Position numbers and translations under genes: made by a program. The notes under the pieces are model-generated. The model worked only from the letters and a program-made list of their open reading frames with translations. It was not told the origin of the DNA and ran no database searches. This document shows positions 12,605 through 19,130 of a stretch of DNA of 64,000 nt, one piece after another. This stretch comes from Bacteroidetes bacterium GWF2_43_63 (GTDB lineage: Bacteria > Bacteroidota > Bacteroidia > Bacteroidales > DTU049). How positions within the stretch are numbered: the stretch's first letter is position 1; each line of letters begins with the position of its first letter. The stretch covers positions 1-64,000 of the forward strand of contig MEOQ01000041.1 in NCBI GenBank assembly GCA_001769275.1, written 5' to 3'.

Positions 12605-13156
12605 ATGCATGATATTGAACCATTTTACAACTGGCGCCACCTCTACATAAGCGAGGAAGATAGCATGTCGCCCTTTTATGGAAGGGAATACAGCGATATT
12701 TATTTTACCCACGCTGTTTACAATTATTATATCCATCCTCAATGGGACGATTTCGGATCCAACACGTTGTATCTGAAAATCATTTTTGCAGATTATCGCA
12801 GCAGGACCGCCATTATTGAATTTATTGGCGAATGGAATGATCTGCTGTATAATGACATTATGTTTCTGAAGCGGAACGTTGTTGAAACTTTGATTGAAAG
12901 CGGAGTTTCGAACTTTATTCTCATTGGCGAAAACGTCCTCAACTTTCATTATTCCGACACCGACTACTACGAAGAATGGCTCGAAGAGCTCGATGAAGGC
13001 TATATTACCTGCATCGGTTTTTTACCCCATGTTGTTGAAGATATGCGCAAAGGCCGCATCAGCCGCTACATAACGATCAACGATGAAATTAACGAGTTAC
13101 CCTGGCGCACTTATCTGCCCGACAATCTGATTCTGAAAGTGGAGTCACTGCTTTAG
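12605..13156 (+). CDS. Conserved hypothetical protein co-transcribed with the Crp/Fnr regulator
   Basis: A 183-residue soluble protein, rich in Tyr, Asp, Glu and Ile, with no signal peptide or membrane helix. I do not recognise a family with certainty. Blocks that look structured: FYNWRHLYISEEDSMSPFYG, YYIHPQWDDFGSNTLYLKI, FADYRSRTAIIEFIGEWND, FLKRNVVETLIESGVSNFILIGENVLNFHYSD and WLEELDEGYITCIGF. It begins 5 bp after the Crp/Fnr stop, so it is co-expressed and may act in the same response. Its stop codon TAG (13154-13156) lies in the first unit of a heptamer microsatellite, so the C-terminus could vary with that repeat. Confidence 0.75.
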   Translation: MHDIEPFYNWRHLYISEEDSMSPFYGREYSDIYFTHAVYNYYIHPQWDDFGSNTLYLKIIFADYRSRTAIIEFIGEWNDLLYNDIMFLKRNVVETLIESGVSNFILIGENVLNFHYSDTDYYEEWLEELDEGYITCIGFLPHVVEDMRKGRISRYITINDEINELPWRTYLPDNLILKVESLL

Positions 13157-13230
13157 GCGTTAGGCGTTAGGCGCTAGGCGTAAGGCGTTAGGCGTAAGGC
13201 ATAAGGCGTTAGGCATAAGGCGTTAGGCAT
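13154..13230. repeat. TAGGCGT heptamer microsatellite
   Basis: Eleven consecutive 7-bp units: TAGGCGT, TAGGCGC, TAAGGCAT-type and AAGGCGT variants, all 7 bp long, starting at the stop codon of the preceding gene. Single substitutions distinguish the units and no indel breaks the register. Confidence 0.93.
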
Positions 13231-13583
13231 TCGGTTTAACGTCCCGACTACGTCGGAGGCGACATTCTGGCGTCGCATTGTCAATACTTTTCTTTTTCAT
13301 TGTCCTTCGACAAGCTCAGGATAAACTCCAAGAAAAGTATTACCGCTTTCAGCGGCATAAACTCCAGAAAAGCTAGTCGCCAGATATGGTTTTCGGAAAA
13401 ATAAACGGACATTTTCGTTTACTTTGTTAGGCGGTTTTTTCGAAAACCTATTTTGAATAAAATGCTAAACCGCCACTACGCCACACGTTTTCCCATCCCG
13501 GAATCGTCGCCGGAGGTGACATTCTGGCGTTGGGAATACGAAATGGAAATTATAAAGTTATCAAGTTAAAAGGTAACGTTTGA
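13231..13583. other. Intergenic gap of nested imperfect palindromes, no gene seen
   Basis: The gap holds stacked inverted repeats: AATACTTTTCTT (13283-13294) with AAGAAAAGTATT (13330-13341); CCGCTTTCAGCGG (13343-13355), a motif that returns at 51619; GGTTTTCG near 13389 with CGAAAACC near 13440; and GGCGGTTT near 13431 with AAACCGCC near 13466. A duplicate of the string GGAGGYGACATTCTGGCGT occurs near 13255 and 13514. No coding frame is supported. Confidence 0.65.
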
Positions 13584-13739
13584 TCAAGTGACAACTACGC
13601 ACTCACTCTGATTCTCCTGACCATTGAATCCGAAACGGTGACACCCGCGCCTCTGCAGACCGCTCTGGGAGGCATTCTCCGCGCGTGCCAACAAATATTG
13701 CTTGTCTGAATATGTTGTATGGAAAGATATTTCAGCCAT
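13584..13739 (-). pseudogene. Rhs tip leader remnant
   Basis: A 51-codon frame from an ATG at 13739 to a TGA at 13584. Its first 43 residues (MAEISFHTTYSD, then ARAENASQSGLQRRGCH and RFGFNGQEN) are nearly the same as the start of the Rhs tip at 15429 (MPETSFHTTYSD, RFGFNGKEN). After QEN the similarity stops and only QSECVVVT follows, so the GTGN...YGAR...LGRF.S.DPL core and any toxin domain are gone. It is read as the leader of a third, lost Rhs tip. It could also encode a short peptide if still expressed. Confidence 0.7.
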
Positions 13740-13848
13740 TAAAAATTAACGTTGAGTAAAGATAAAAAATTATTTCTACGTGCACTAAATGTTAAATTTG
13801 GGACGCCAGGGGGTTTGGCCTTTGTGGGAGCGGATCGTGGCGTCCCAT
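13611..13848. repeat. Rhs leader duplication, copy 1
   Basis: This 238-bp segment aligns without gaps to 15301-15538 (offset 1690), with roughly 85% identity judged by eye. It covers the RFGFNG motif, the GC-rich palindrome, the ATG region and about 110 bp of upstream DNA, and ends in an inverted repeat GGGACGCCA (13800-13808) / TGGCGTCCC (13838-13846). The strand with the leader reads to the left. Confidence 0.93.
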
Positions 13849-14024
13849 TTGGTGTCCCAAAATAGAAAACTCATGTTCAGCACACATCAAATTTTTTACA
13901 CTACTCTCCTCCAAATTCCCAACCCCCGAAAATTTAATAATTTCAATGCTTTTCTGAGAGTAAAAAGCCCCGCTGGAGGGCGGGGCGTTTACATATAAAA
14001 GGATGTAAATATTTATTGTGAATA

Positions 14025-14450
14025 TTACTGTGTGGATTCACATCCACCAGAAAATGGAGCAAATAAATATTTTTTTGAAAAACCTGAGTTGATTGATATA
14101 ACAGTAACGGAATCTGTTCCTTTGTTTTTTATTATTGTGTCATTAATACAGACATTTTTGAAGAAGGACATATTTGGTTTAACATCAATATCATAAAAAT
14201 AAATCGAATCAGCTGATTGAATGGAAATCATCGCGCCACTGCTATCAATACCAGAATAGTCTTTTTTTATCAACACTCCTCTAAATTCTTGATTTAAATA
14301 TACACGTGTGTAATACTCTTGCATGTGAATAATAGGTGCATTTTTTAAATGAGAACTTAAGCTTGATAAGAAAACAATTACTGCAACTATTGTTACTGCA
14401 GCAATTACTAATATAATCAACAATGGTGATTTTTTAGTTTCCTGTGCCAT
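14025..14450 (-). CDS. Candidate immunity protein of the Rhs lipase tip, one membrane helix
   Basis: A 141-residue protein starting at the ATG at 14450. It has one N-terminal helix (PLLIILVIAAVTIVAVIVFLSSLSS), then a region probably outside the cytoplasm (HMQEYYTRVYLNQEFRGVLIKKDYSGIDSSG..., SVTVISINSGFS). No known family recognised. Its start overlaps the end of the Rhs tip gene by 17 bp, which suggests translational coupling. A small gene in this position behind a toxin tip is the usual place of an immunity gene, and an envelope-anchored protein would suit a periplasmic lipase; that role is inferred. An alternative frame start at 14513 is less likely. Confidence 0.65.
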   Translation of the reverse strand: MAQETKKSPLLIILVIAAVTIVAVIVFLSSLSSHLKNAPIIHMQEYYTRVYLNQEFRGVLIKKDYSGIDSSGAMISIQSADSIYFYDIDVKPNMSFFKNVCINDTIIKNKGTDSVTVISINSGFSKKYLFAPFSGGCESTQ

Positions 14451-15429
14451 TTGGTTGTGATGAGTTATATTCTTTCGCTTTCTCGTCAAAAACTTTTGTA
14501 TTCGATGGGTCACTTTTCATTTGAGGGACATTCTTGAGAAATTTTGCAAAATCCTCACTCCATGGTAAATCAGTATGAGGCTTCCATTGCACTAAACTGC
14601 CTGTTGAATTCATTTCTTTATCTTCTAAGACGAAATTTTCGGTTTTGTTGTTGAAATAATATATTTCTCCTCCTGCAAAAGTCTGAACTGGGTCATCAAT
14701 ATGAACAAAGCTATAATGATTCTTAATACCTGGATGATTTGCAGGGTTTTCACTGTCATTTTTTCCGTTATAGGCAGGTGTTGCAACAGTAATTAAATTC
14801 ACATTTATACCAATCGAACTTAAAAAGCCAGCAGCTTGAATTGCCACATTTCCTCCGTGACTATAACCAATAAGAGTTACTGGTTCATTTTCTGAAATTT
14901 GCCCTGAAGCCAACATTGTCGCTCTCGTTTTCATGACATGAACAGTAAGAACAAGTGCACTAATAAATCTATCGGTTTCTTTATTTAATAACGGTGCATC
15001 CCAAGTAAATGAATCATCACAGCTTGAATTTCCACCTATTCTCATTAGTTGATTTTTAACAGATGATGAAAAAACGTATCGGCTTGAGTTCTGATTAGAC
15101 CCATGAATAATAAAAGCCTCCAACCCATCAAAGTCAATTGCCTGAATAGGCGTATTGGAAGCAAACTGATATGGTGACAATTCTGGGTATTTTTGTTGCT
15201 GAACTATTAATGGGTCAGCCGACAAAAATCGTCCAATTCTATTATCATAAATTCTTGCACCATAATCCTGCTGATTTCCAGTCCCTTTCACCTCGTTGTC
15301 ATTCTCTTTGCCATTGAATCCGAAACGGTGACACCCGCGCCTCTGCAGCCCGCTCTGGGAGCCATTCTCAGCGCGCGCCAATAAATAACGATCGTCTGAA
15401 TATGTTGTATGGAAAGATGTTTCGGGCAT
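14434..15429 (-). CDS. Orphan Rhs tip with C-terminal lipase-like (alpha/beta-hydrolase) toxin domain
   Basis: A 331-residue truncated Rhs protein. Residues 1-46 are the repeated leader with an in-frame GC-rich insert (ENGSQSGLQRRGCH). Then comes the Rhs core end: RFGFNGKENDNEVKGTGN, YGARIYDNRIGRFLSADPL and YQFASNTPIQAIDFDGLEAF. After this, a variable domain has IHGSNQNSS, VTLIGYSHGGNVAIQAAG (nucleophile elbow GYSHG), LITVATPAYNG, VHIDDPVQTF and PHTDLPWS, consistent with a Ser-Asp-His lipase/esterase fold like those used as Rhs toxins that attack phospholipids. The long Rhs shell is absent and no signal peptide is present, so delivery alone is doubtful; it could recombine into a full Rhs gene. 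Followed by an overlapping candidate immunity gene. Confidence 0.78.
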   Translation of the reverse strand: MPETSFHTTYSDDRYLLARAENGSQSGLQRRGCHRFGFNGKENDNEVKGTGNQQDYGARIYDNRIGRFLSADPLIVQQQKYPELSPYQFASNTPIQAIDFDGLEAFIIHGSNQNSSRYVFSSSVKNQLMRIGGNSSCDDSFTWDAPLLNKETDRFISALVLTVHVMKTRATMLASGQISENEPVTLIGYSHGGNVAIQAAGFLSSIGINVNLITVATPAYNGKNDSENPANHPGIKNHYSFVHIDDPVQTFAGGEIYYFNNKTENFVLEDKEMNSTGSLVQWKPHTDLPWSEDFAKFLKNVPQMKSDPSNTKVFDEKAKEYNSSQPNGTGN

Positions 15430-15538
15430 GGAAAATTAACGCTGAGTAAAGATAGAAAATTATTTCTGAGTGTGCATAATGTTAAATTTGGGACGCCAGG
15501 GGGTTTGAGTTGTGTGGGTGCGGGATGTGGCGTCCCAT
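15301..15538. repeat. Rhs leader duplication, copy 2
   Basis: The functional-looking copy of the 238-bp segment at 13611-13848. It carries the start codon of the Rhs lipase tip (15429) and 110 bp upstream, where the minus strand shows a -7-like TATCTTTA near 15454. GGGACGCCA (15490-15498) and TGGCGTCCC (15528-15536) form the same closing inverted repeat as in copy 1. Confidence 0.93.
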
Positions 15539-15638
15539 GAATGATGCTTTTTATTGAAATTGACCTGGAGCACACGCTTGTATTATACATAATAAAAATG
15601 TGCGCAATCGCAAATTAGCAACATATATTGACCAATCT

Positions 15639-16460
15639 TTACTCATCAAATATTCTAACATCAATAAAACTCCATCCGTACCAATTCTCCTCAATATGCC
15701 TAAAAGTATTATTGCTAACTGAATAGTCATTAAAATTACAATATCTGAATTTTGTTAGCATTGATGATTGCAAATATTCATATACAACATAAAGTCCATT
15801 ATCATTCTTGATTATTATTACTGAATTTAAAAAATTAAAATAAAAAAACTTATTGCGATCAATACGAATAAGAGTTGAATACAACATACCTCCAGGTATA
15901 ATGAAAGAAAACGAATTGATTCTTAGTTTCTCAATATATGACTTTAGCATTGAATCAACTTCAAATAATTCGGTAGATTTAAGCATCCCATACTCATAAA
16001 GCAATGTTAATGACTGGTTGTTCAAATCACTTTTTGTAATTTCTAAACCTAATGAATCCTTAATGTACGACTGTTTATAAATAGATCTGATTGGAATAAG
16101 GTCATTAATAGAATCAATTTTTGTGAAAACAGTTGAATCTGCCTTTGATAAAGATGTGCATTCTTTATTAATTTCATACCAACAATTCCATCTATCAATA
16201 TCCTGAAACATTTCATCTTGACTCACCCAAAGATCTTCTCCGACAACCCATCCCTCCCCAATATTCGGTACTGTGTCAGTGAGATATGTTAGATATGCTA
16301 TGATGCTAACACATCTTTTAGTTTTACAGCCATTTTTAAGACCATTAACACAAGAGTCAAATTTGCACTTAAATGCTGGATCAACTCCTTTATTACAACC
16401 GCAATGTATTGTCATTATTGTTGTTATAATTATAAAAAGAATTTTCTTTTTCATAATCAT
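15639..16460 (-). CDS. Hypothetical lipoprotein, candidate immunity protein of the upstream Rhs tip
   Basis: A 273-residue protein directly behind the Rhs tip at 16461: the tip's TAA and this ATG (16460) are adjacent, with a second ATG at 16454. The leader KKKILFIIITTIMTIHCGCNKG ends in Cys residues but is a weak lipobox; export is likely, lipidation possible. The rest is polar with many Tyr, Asp and Ser, and several hydrophobic strands. No family recognised. Position after a toxin-bearing Rhs tip suggests immunity, by context only. The low GC content, compared with flanking housekeeping genes, fits transfer. Confidence 0.65.
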   Translation of the reverse strand: MIMKKKILFIIITTIMTIHCGCNKGVDPAFKCKFDSCVNGLKNGCKTKRCVSIIAYLTYLTDTVPNIGEGWVVGEDLWVSQDEMFQDIDRWNCWYEINKECTSLSKADSTVFTKIDSINDLIPIRSIYKQSYIKDSLGLEITKSDLNNQSLTLLYEYGMLKSTELFEVDSMLKSYIEKLRINSFSFIIPGGMLYSTLIRIDRNKFFYFNFLNSVIIIKNDNGLYVVYEYLQSSMLTKFRYCNFNDYSVSNNTFRHIEENWYGWSFIDVRIFDE

Positions 16461-17510
16461 TTATTCTTCTTTTGTAATCACTGGAATTGAAAGTGGTTGT
16501 TTTACTTCAAATGGTTCGTCTGCATCATAATTCATTTTTGTCACACTATTATCGCTTTCTGTTGCGCCCTGCGTCACTGTGCCATTAGAATAATCTTCAT
16601 ATTCATCCTCACGAGTATTATTATTAACAGGGTTTTCGGCATTCTTAATTGCATCTGAATGAGCAGGATCATAATCTTTACGGAAGACTTGAATCATATA
16701 TTGCTCATATAATTCATGTGAAAGTTTTCCAATTTGAGTAAATCCCCTGGATTTAAGGTATCCTGAATAAGATTTACTTCCAACCATTACCTTATTAAAC
16801 TTTCCCGTTAGATTAAACTGTTTTATGTCCTTCATATCTATTTCGCCAGTCGCGGCTTTTCCAACATTAACATCAGACGAACCATATACAGCTTTAATAT
16901 TAACAACTGATTTATCCGTTACAATTTTACTCATAACATTATAAAAAGCCTTACCATTAGGTGTCATATCATCTACATTACCTGGAAAATTTTTGTTGGT
17001 TCCAATTACCACCTCATATTGCCCATTCCCAACAGCTTTTAACCCAACATCAAATTGACCTTCCAAGCCCATTTTCATAACACTCAAAAAAGCATCAATA
17101 GACTCTTGACTACTAAAAGACATATATATTTTTTTCCCATCTCTATCCATCAACATTATTGGAGAATTTGCCGCGAAGCAATATGGAGATAAATCAGGAT
17201 AATCTTTAAACAATGGGTCCACACTCATCCACCTTCCCAATCTCGAATCATAAATCCTCGCACCAAAATCAACACTATTTCCAGTCCCTTTCACCTCATT
17301 GTCATTCTCTTTACCATTGAATCCGAAACGGTAGTTGTCCGAAGAATAGGTTCTGTCTGTTTCAAGTGAACCGAAAGGATAATAATCCTGGGCGCTGGTG
17401 ATCACAGCAGCATACGAATCAACCACACCATCGGCATCGCCATCGGCAGTCAGTTTTATATCTGACACCGTGGTGAGCACATTGCCCAGATGGTTGGAAA
17501 ATTCGTACAT
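16461..17510 (-). CDS. N-terminally truncated Rhs tip with putative HELYEQ...H toxin domain
   Basis: A 349-residue Rhs C-terminus starting at ATG 17510. Just upstream the frame reads GKKMYEFSNHLGNV, as in complete Rhs proteins, but a TAG lies 8 codons before the ATG (17532-17534), so the shell has been lost. Core motifs: YEFSNHLGNVLTTVSD, DYYPFGSLETDRTYSSDNYRFGFNG, FGARIYDSRLGRWMSVDPL, YCFAANSPIMLMDRDGKKI. The variable part of about 230 residues has LSHELYEQYMIQVFRKDYDPAHSDAIKNAEN, where HE and a later H could bind zinc as in metallopeptidase-type Rhs toxins, but the HExxH form is not kept. The activity is unknown. An adjacent lipoprotein gene follows. Confidence 0.75.
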   Translation of the reverse strand: MYEFSNHLGNVLTTVSDIKLTADGDADGVVDSYAAVITSAQDYYPFGSLETDRTYSSDNYRFGFNGKENDNEVKGTGNSVDFGARIYDSRLGRWMSVDPLFKDYPDLSPYCFAANSPIMLMDRDGKKIYMSFSSQESIDAFLSVMKMGLEGQFDVGLKAVGNGQYEVVIGTNKNFPGNVDDMTPNGKAFYNVMSKIVTDKSVVNIKAVYGSSDVNVGKAATGEIDMKDIKQFNLTGKFNKVMVGSKSYSGYLKSRGFTQIGKLSHELYEQYMIQVFRKDYDPAHSDAIKNAENPVNNNTREDEYEDYSNGTVTQGATESDNSVTKMNYDADEPFEVKQPLSIPVITKEE

Positions 17511-17625
17511 TTTTTTGCCTAAATCAGGTGACTAAAGTATAAAAATAAATTAAGTTGTTTGGATTTTATTCCGAATCGGTCCAACACCAGCAGGTTTCTC
17601 CGCAGCTTTCTTGACGACATCGCCA

Positions 17626-17707
17626 CTTGACCTCGACCTTGTTCTCGACCTTGACCTCAATCTCAACCTTGACCGTGTTCTCGACCTTGTTCTTGACCTC
17701 GTTCTCG
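17626..17707. repeat. Hexamer-based microsatellite (GACCTT-like)
   Basis: About 14 degenerate 6-bp units such as TTGACC, TCGACC, TTGTTC and TCAATC run without frame breaks between the Rhs array and the mutase promoter. On the opposite strand the units read like CAAGGT, the same type as the repeat at 34245-34301. Confidence 0.85.
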
Positions 17708-17741
17708 TACCAGCGTGCAGGAATTCGGATAAACAGCGCTA

Positions 17742-17771
17742 TTGCTCTTTATCAATTATTGCTTATCTTTG
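17742..17771 (+). promoter_or_regulatory. Promoter of the phosphohexomutase gene
   Basis: TTG at 17742-17744 and TATCTTTG at 17764-17771 are 19 bp apart, a match to the Bacteroidota consensus; the ATG at 17787 is 15 bp downstream. Confidence 0.7.
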
Positions 17772-17786
17772 AAATAAAAAAATACT

Positions 17787-19130
17787 ATGGGAGCATTTCA
17801 TGCCTACGATATCCGTGGAGTATACGGAAAAGATTTCAATGCCGAAGACGTGTACAGGATGGGTTTTTTTCTGCCCTCAATAATGAATGCAAAACGATGG
17901 TTGGTAGGCCGCGATGTGCGCGAATCATCGCCTGAAATTCACCGGCAGCTGCTGAAAGGTCTGACTGATGCGGGCTGTGAGGTATCCGATGCCGGGCTTT
18001 GCACAACACCCATGGTGTATTGGGGTACTGCAAAATTTGGATTCGACGCATCTGTAATGATTACGGCCAGCCACAATCCCAGTGAATACAACGGGTTGAA
18101 AATTTCGGCAGCCAATGCAGTCCCGGTTGGATACGATAACGGATTGAACAAGCTGGAACAAAAAATAAAAGAAATTCCGGAAGTGACAGTGACGCCCGGA
18201 AAGGTGATTGAACTGGATTTTCTGAAAGATTATGTAGCGTTCATGATGCCTTATAAAAAAGACATCAGCAATCTGAAAATAGTGATGGACTGCAGCAATG
18301 GCATGGCCTCGCTGATGGTAAAAGATATTTTTGGTTCGCATCCGGTTTACCTGTTCGATGAGCTCGACGGCCGCTTCCCGAACCACGAGCCGAATCCGCT
18401 CGATATGAAAAACATCATTCAGTTGCAGCAGAAAGTGAAGGAAACCGGAGCCGATTTAGGGGTAATATTCGATGGCGATGCCGACCGTGTGATGTTTACC
18501 GATGAGAATGGAACCTTCATTCCGCCTGATCTTCTGATAGGTCTGCTCGGACATTATTTTCTGGAAGAAAAAGGATTGAAGGGCAAAGTGATTCAGGATA
18601 TACGCACTTCTAAATCTGTTGCAGAATACCTCGCTCCTCTGGGTGCTGAAATGAAAATCTGGCGCGTTGGTCGGGCCTATGCAGCCAATATGTTGCGCGA
18701 GATTGACGGAATCTATGGCGGAGAGCTGGCCGGACATTATTACTTTAAGGATTTTTACTACAGTGATTCCGGCATACTTGCATCAATTCTGATCATCAAT
18801 CTCTTTGCTCAGTTCAAACGTGAGGGTATATCAGCTTCGGCAGTGGTAGGTAGAATCTGCAAATACCAAAACTCAGGAGAAATCAATTTTCGCATCGCGG
18901 AAAAACAAAAAGCAATGGATGCTGTGAAAGATCATTTTTTCGCACAGGCCTCTCCCACTCTGTTTCTCGATTTCGATGGCTACCGTGTTGAGTATCCCGA
19001 CTGGTGGTTCAATATCAGGCCTTCGAACACAGAACCCTATTTGCGCCTGCTGGTTGAAGCAAAAACAGCTGAATTGCTTCAAGAAAAAACGGAGACCATT
19101 AATAAAATTCTTGCAAATTTTCAGTCATGA
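17787..19130 (+). CDS. Phosphomannomutase/phosphoglucomutase
   Basis: A 447-residue alpha-D-phosphohexomutase interconverting hexose 6- and 1-phosphates for sugar-nucleotide synthesis, in the cytosol. All four domains are visible: the active-site loop TASHNPSEYNG with the phosphoserine (about residue 94), the metal loop FDGDADRVMF, the sugar-binding GELAGHYYF (GEMSGH equivalent), and the phosphate loop RPSNTEPYLRLLVEAKT at the C-terminus. The motifs favour the PMM/PGM branch, as in AlgC, over phosphoglucosamine mutase GlmM. The last four bases overlap the start of the following lipoprotein gene (ATGA), showing coupling. Confidence 0.95.
   Translation: MGAFHAYDIRGVYGKDFNAEDVYRMGFFLPSIMNAKRWLVGRDVRESSPEIHRQLLKGLTDAGCEVSDAGLCTTPMVYWGTAKFGFDASVMITASHNPSEYNGLKISAANAVPVGYDNGLNKLEQKIKEIPEVTVTPGKVIELDFLKDYVAFMMPYKKDISNLKIVMDCSNGMASLMVKDIFGSHPVYLFDELDGRFPNHEPNPLDMKNIIQLQQKVKETGADLGVIFDGDADRVMFTDENGTFIPPDLLIGLLGHYFLEEKGLKGKVIQDIRTSKSVAEYLAPLGAEMKIWRVGRAYAANMLREIDGIYGGELAGHYYFKDFYYSDSGILASILIINLFAQFKREGISASAVVGRICKYQNSGEINFRIAEKQKAMDAVKDHFFAQASPTLFLDFDGYRVEYPDWWFNIRPSNTEPYLRLLVEAKTAELLQEKTETINKILANFQS

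Follow-up and report, generated by a model that had tools for sequence, protein, structure and literature searches.

Organization of the island

The window analysed here, the first 64,000 nucleotides of contig MEOQ01000041.1 (C41) of Bacteroidetes bacterium GWF2_43_63, contains a 4.6-kb island whose minus strand carries, in order, tip B, protein B, an inverted repeat, tip A and protein A, followed by a hairpin resembling a terminator, another inverted repeat and the remnant of a leader. The island and its neighbours are the following:

12605-13156, plus strand: 183-aa gene (left flank), adjoining a CRP-type regulator
13157-17786, no strand assigned: inserted island between the 183-aa gene and a phosphomannomutase-like gene, exact ends undefined
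17787-19130, plus strand: phosphomannomutase-like gene (right flank), followed by a 367-aa gene

The island is missing from G003, a genome of the same genus, where the CRP-type regulator, the 183-aa gene, the phosphomannomutase-like gene and the 367-aa gene follow one another as in the window, and where the spacing between the 183-aa and phosphomannomutase-like genes is 55 bp versus 4.6 kb here. This comparison indicates that the block is an insertion, its position being unoccupied in the relative, although loss in G003 is formally possible because this is the one relative in which both flanks were found together. Descent of the island from a degraded full rhs locus is less parsimonious since the site is empty in G003, gain and later loss of a shell being the residual alternative. 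Degenerate short tandem repeats occur at both ends of the island (GGCGTTA at 13150-13240 and GACCTTG at 17604-17712), the GACCTTG type being found at other sites of the genome too, and the 127 bp at 13285-13411 are 93% identical to C40:181941-182069, the end of a cassette cluster on contig C40. A PADLOC run on the window proteins gave no match to known defence systems.

Two cassettes of Rhs tips and envelope-like partners

Each cassette consists of a displaced Rhs C-terminus, made up of the core and a toxin-like tip, with one envelope-protein gene in contact downstream:

16461-17510, minus strand: tip B, shell-derived N-terminus, Rhs core and HExxEQ...H C-terminal domain, 349 aa
15639-16460, minus strand: candidate immunity gene B, 273 aa, signal/lipoprotein-like, starting directly after the tip B stop
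14434-15429, minus strand: tip A, leader peptide, Rhs core and predicted lipase-fold C-terminal domain, 331 aa
14025-14450, minus strand: candidate immunity gene A, with a membrane anchor at the N terminus; MAQ at 14450 is the probable start
13967-13986, minus strand: intrinsic-terminator-like hairpin 3' of immunity gene A, 7 G-C pairs followed by TTTTTACT

The original prediction of two displaced Rhs tips, one lipase-like with GYSHG and the other with HELYEQ...H, was borne out, as both motifs are present and profile searches placed the Rhs_assc_core domain (TIGR03696) in both reading frames above the curated cut-off (E 3.1e-13 in tip A and 5.7e-15 in tip B). It had also described the following genes as overlapping or touching the tips and as envelope-anchored; the contact stood, with a 17-nt overlap in cassette A and abutting genes in cassette B, while the anchor is a single N-terminal hydrophobic stretch in protein A and a weak lipobox in protein B, whose paralogue on C40 has a clearer one.

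In tip A the GYSHG motif is accompanied by an intact Ser-Asp-His triad, and S84, D140 and H179 are invariant in an alignment of 22 sequences (tip A and 21 homologues). The AF2 model (pLDDT 86) has lipases as its top Foldseek matches, and the predicted fold is lipase-like; GxSxG motif, triad and fold are those of alpha/beta-hydrolase (lipase) toxins. Among Bacteroidota and their near relatives, 26 tips are homologous to tip A, some on full shells and others on short reading frames, and a small membrane or secreted protein is encoded behind nearly all of them; behind the closest homologue (L076), this gene is homologous to that of protein A.

Tip B gave no PDB or Pfam match and no viral relatives were found for it, its AF2 model, built without relatives, reaches a pLDDT of just 41, and its HExxEQ...H motif is only suggestive of a metal site. 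Its start differs from the leader of tip A and is copied at C47:52231-52547 with 87.5% identity. A second, diverged tip B/protein B pair lies on C40 (tip paralogue at C40:254240-255166, the tips being 57% identical), the pair being duplicated as a unit, and homologues of tip B in G731 and G705 are each followed by a lipoprotein-like gene. Omega between the two copies of the pair is 0.12 for the core, 0.20 for the tip and 0.33 for the immunity gene, a purifying signal that could date from a time on shells.

Rhs shells elsewhere in the genome

No full Rhs shell had been seen in the window, and our search confirmed this for the whole of C41 (94,866 bp), which has no full shell, no Rhs core besides the two window tips and no recombinase. 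A genome devoid of full rhs genes would have spoken against the original prediction, but this is not what was found, since five are present on other contigs: the 3.98-Mb genome contains 23 Rhs cores, five of them in long frames of 1999-3260 aa. The tip of the shell on C27 is paralogous to two orphan tips of its own (56% and 45%), and so are the corresponding immunity genes (35% and 27%). Also on C27, an orphan HNH-nuclease tip (C27:3870-5020, L034) is interrupted by IS3-type transposase genes.

The longest exact match to any shell is 35 bp for tip A and 60 bp for tip B, and homology this short limits ready fusion to a present shell. The proposal that the island resembles the silent cassette store of an rhs locus is not supported in the strict sense, as the G003 site has no rhs locus and exact shell homology does not exceed 60 bp.

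Repeated leaders and flanks of the cassettes

Upstream of tip A and beyond the hairpin, four further features were recognized:

15478-15538, minus strand: inverted repeat of the leader preceding cassette A, 49 bp (TGGGACGCCA-N29-TGGCGTCCCA) at 15489-15537, with perfect arms
15430-15474, minus strand: promoter-like block upstream of tip A, AATAATTTTCTATCTTTACTC, containing TATCTTTA
13788-13848, minus strand: second copy of the leader's inverted repeat, spanning 49 bp at 13799-13847
13584-13739, minus strand: leader remnant of a third, lost cassette, a 51-codon reading frame ending soon after RFGFNGQEN

The leader before tip A, about 250 bp long, has nine copies in the genome that are 84-91% identical: six on C27 and one on C40, all in front of orphan tips, and two on C41 (tip A and the remnant). 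Its unit consists of the 49-bp inverted repeat, the TATCTTTA box, which is kept in all nine copies, an ATG and a leader peptide of 34 residues that runs in frame into the Rhs core. Chance is excluded as the source of these resemblances because the genome contains 25 matches to the leader sequence and 23 to the core domain. The remnant, read from the outset as the trace of a third, lost tip, proved to be a shortened copy of the leader of tip A, with 85-86% DNA identity over about 240 bp; bare remnants also occur on C43, C44 and C47. The two 49-bp inverted repeats bracket cassette A in direct orientation, and their geometry, two 10-bp arms placed 29 bp apart, is constant and recurs on C27, C40 and C21, although two of the C27 leader copies lack the repeat. 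The 3' flank with the terminator (13840-13990) is likewise repeated behind cassettes on C40, C21, C27 and C44. The leader as a widespread element was rejected, with no match in 59 relatives at E<=1e-6, and coding selection on the leader peptide is marginal only (pN/pS 0.47, permutation 17/300).

The -7 element of Bacteroidota is TAnnTTTG, which is enriched upstream of the genes of this genome (28 observed versus 4.8 expected). The box of the leader, TATCTTTA, departs from this consensus by one base, the TAnnTTTA class is not enriched (15 observed versus 10.4 expected), and a sigma-70 promoter scan gave no more matches than in shuffled sequences. Expression of the lipase tip on its own, as originally suggested, is plausible, the ATG and the promoter-like block in front of it being one of the nine conserved copies.

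A second, unrelated leader family (MKTMRNTKCFGW...) precedes the orphan loci at C10:60300, C15:27736 and C45:37298, again with a TAnnTTTA box right before the ATG. Within the Rhs tip array of C27 lies an AbiEi/AbiEii-like pair (C27:18386-20019, L034/L035), in front of which a leader fragment has the inverted repeat and no ATG; at C40:180351-181746 (L039) a RhuM/Fic gene is joined to a truncated leader, and another RhuM gene adjoins the orphan tip on C15.

These leaders bear on whether the cassettes could be intracellular type II toxin-antitoxin modules, in which the tip would be made from the leader promoter and neutralized by the paired protein, the DNA being selfishly retained, a role that has been reported for an orphan rhs of Salmonella (PMC7043789). 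The conserved promoter-like leader with its ATG, the overlapping gene order and the attachment of this leader to AbiE-like and RhuM/Fic genes on C27 and C40 would fit such modules. However, a lipase tip would normally be harmful from the periplasmic side, and envelope-like partners, one with a membrane anchor and the other signal/lipoprotein-like, would not meet a cytosolic toxin. A strictly intracellular role is made less likely by the envelope location that inspection of the sequences suggests for both partners, and we regard it as distinctly unlikely.

It is also unlikely, though less so, that the island is inert debris, that is, rhs fragments scattered by recombination and transposition of which none is functional now. 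The third cassette being a leader only, the bare remnants on C43, C44 and C47 and the lack of a shell on the contig are what debris would look like, but the two tips and their paired genes all have full-length open frames, the triad of tip A is intact, omega between the pair copies is 0.12-0.33, and the start and promoter-like blocks are conserved.

Twin tyrosine-recombinase elements beside Rhs tips

On C27 the shell is followed by an orphan-tip array that ends at a convergent operon composed of an ATPase-like gene, the 49-bp inverted repeat, the recombinase genes rec1 and rec2, and an orphan tip. Rec1 is Xer-like with the canonical residues and Rec2 is degenerate; against the integron-integrase model TIGR02249, Rec1 scored 97 bits, with a cut-off of 265. 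C21 has an operon like that of C27 (90% identity over 3.6 kb), and the inverted repeat stands upstream of both recombinase operons (C27:1514 and C21:24203), each beside a shell-plus-tip locus.

A search with Rec2 among about 510 sampled genomes found true pairs, or a Rec2 cut by the contig end, in 15 further genomes. All 21 loci of the recombinase pair, found in 16 Bacteroidota genomes, lay less than 5 kb from an Rhs core, a count that describes an association and is not a p-value, given that the relatives share descent and that our own genome is not independent, the query having been chosen beside a tip. For comparison, the fraction of the genome within 5 kb of an Rhs core is 0.4-5.8% per genome, and none of seven control loci with a single Xer-type recombinase had an Rhs core in 17 kb. 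In four genomes (G205, G459, G182 and G194), modules consisting of XRE, ATPase, Rec1, Rec2, tip and partner are repeated behind the shell; in two of these four, the tandem modules (L145, L147, L149 and L150 across the set) are 99% identical copies. Arrays ending at the recombinase pair occur in G166, with eight orphan tips and most leaders 88-95% identical, and in G038, with at least 10 orphan tips.

The gap before rec1 shows inverted repeats in excess of those in shuffled sequences in G216, G263, G182, G194 and G166 but not in the other genomes, and the right arm CTGGCGTTC is common to this gap in our genome, G038 and G216. A possible mechanism for the movement of the cassettes is that the twin recombinases act on the 49-bp repeats bracketing cassette A to excise or insert tip/immunity cassettes, as in integrons. 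The constant arrangement of the repeat wherever it occurs, also upstream of rec1, the conservation of CTGGCGTTC in the same gap of G038 and G216 and the 21/21 association of the pair with Rhs cores point this way. However, the arms of a classic tyrosine-recombinase core site are 6-8 bp apart and not 29 bp, two C27 leaders have no repeat, the rec1-upstream repeat was not seen in front of cassettes in other genomes, and neither excised nor empty cassette junctions were seen. We consider this mechanism doubtful; it concerns how cassettes move and is compatible with, not exclusive of, their storage.

The repeated presence of tip arrays beside the same recombinase pair across the phylum suggests shuffling by a dedicated mobile element. 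We propose tentatively, with the odds against it, a mobile-element family made up of an XRE regulator, an ATPase/primase-like gene, a catalytic Rec1 and a degenerate Rec2, dedicated to Rhs tip/immunity cassettes across Bacteroidota and mobilizing or shuffling them, the inverted repeats of cassette A being its sites. Our search of the freely accessible literature found no paper that joins Rhs arrays to a tyrosine-recombinase pair.

A probable reserve and immunity store of tip cassettes

The explanation that we favour, at a probability of roughly 60%, is that the island serves as a small store, for reserve and immunity, of Rhs-tip/immunity cassettes that are self-contained and spread through recombination in leader and core, probably aided by recombinase elements. 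The leader would transcribe tip and immunity gene together, and the envelope immunity protein would shield the cell from that tip when kin or rivals deliver it on a full Rhs protein. The tip itself would be stored ammunition that could be joined to a shell via the common core. Cassettes would be copied and moved through recombination in the repeated leader and core, probably helped by the twin tyrosine-recombinase elements located elsewhere in the genome, which share this inverted repeat.

The store is suggested by the empty G003 site, the nine leaders with box and ATG, the conserved 3' flank and the duplicated tip B/protein B pair, as well as by the intact triad and predicted lipase-like fold of tip A and the partner genes behind nearly all of its 26 homologues. 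The five shells, the paralogy between shell and orphan tips on C27, the inverted repeat before the recombinase operons and the 21/21 association point in the same direction. Against it stand a contig without recombinase or shell, exact shell homology (35 and 60 bp) that is short for efficient homologous exchange, a leader box one base off consensus in a class that is not enriched, weak coding selection on the leader peptide, the different leader of tip B and an arm spacing unlike the classic core site. Overall, the original prediction was partly supported; the genome-wide leader family and the recombinase association lie beyond the window on which it was based.

The acquisition and exchange of tips by polymorphic toxins are usually explained by homologous recombination inside rhs. 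A recombinase pair beside Rhs tips in all the genomes that yielded it, together with leaders on individual cassettes, offers a testable candidate for dedicated tip shuffling. If the mobile-element proposal were true, it would amount to an integron-like or rAID-like system for weapons instead of resistance genes, and the rAID idea would widen from immunity genes alone to toxin-immunity pairs.

Comparison with known systems

Polymorphic stand-alone toxin cassettes followed by immunity genes, and toxin domains of the lipase type (ABhydrolase), were described by Zhang 2012 (PMC3482391) without a recombinase pair or portable leaders, the term 'integrase' being absent from that text. Like integron cassettes, cassette A is bracketed by directly oriented repeated sites, with a tyrosine recombinase elsewhere in the genome; unlike them, the cassettes have their own promoter-like leader, Rec1 is not of the IntI type and the site geometry differs.

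Another parallel is offered by orphan rhs-CT/rhsI modules in Enterobacteriaceae (Poole 2011, PMC3150448; Koskiniemi 2014, PMC3967940), of which a genome has several. In them, too, a displaced Rhs C-terminus retains a fragment of the core and is followed by its paired gene, and an internal promoter upstream of the tips has precedent in orphan rhs of Salmonella (PMC7043789). Both our reading frames are truncated rhs fragments with the TIGR03696 core and a variable C-terminal domain, and the downstream genes show linkage and co-duplication, with immunity as their candidate function. However, the island does not lie downstream of a main rhs gene on C41, as the orphan tips on C27 and C21 do, and has no long near-identical homology to a main gene (at most 60 bp exact); moreover, tip A is preceded by a repeated leader of its own, with an ATG, and the paired proteins look envelope-located.

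Recombinase-associated acquired interbacterial defence (rAID) arrays consist of immunity genes only and have one tyrosine recombinase (PMC12247911 and work cited there). The likeness lies in Bacteroidota hosts, a tyrosine recombinase tied to arrays of short cassettes and a defensive role of the immunity genes, putative here, and the leader and 3' flank repeats correspond in kind to the conserved intergenic motifs of rAID. In contrast to rAID, the cassettes described here combine toxin tip and candidate immunity gene, the recombinase is a catalytic and degenerate pair accompanied by an ATPase/primase-like gene, and the island has no recombinase at the head of its array, the twin pair being located on C27 and C21. 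The island would work like orphan rhs modules and rAID arrays yet is distinct from both, lacking defining features of each.
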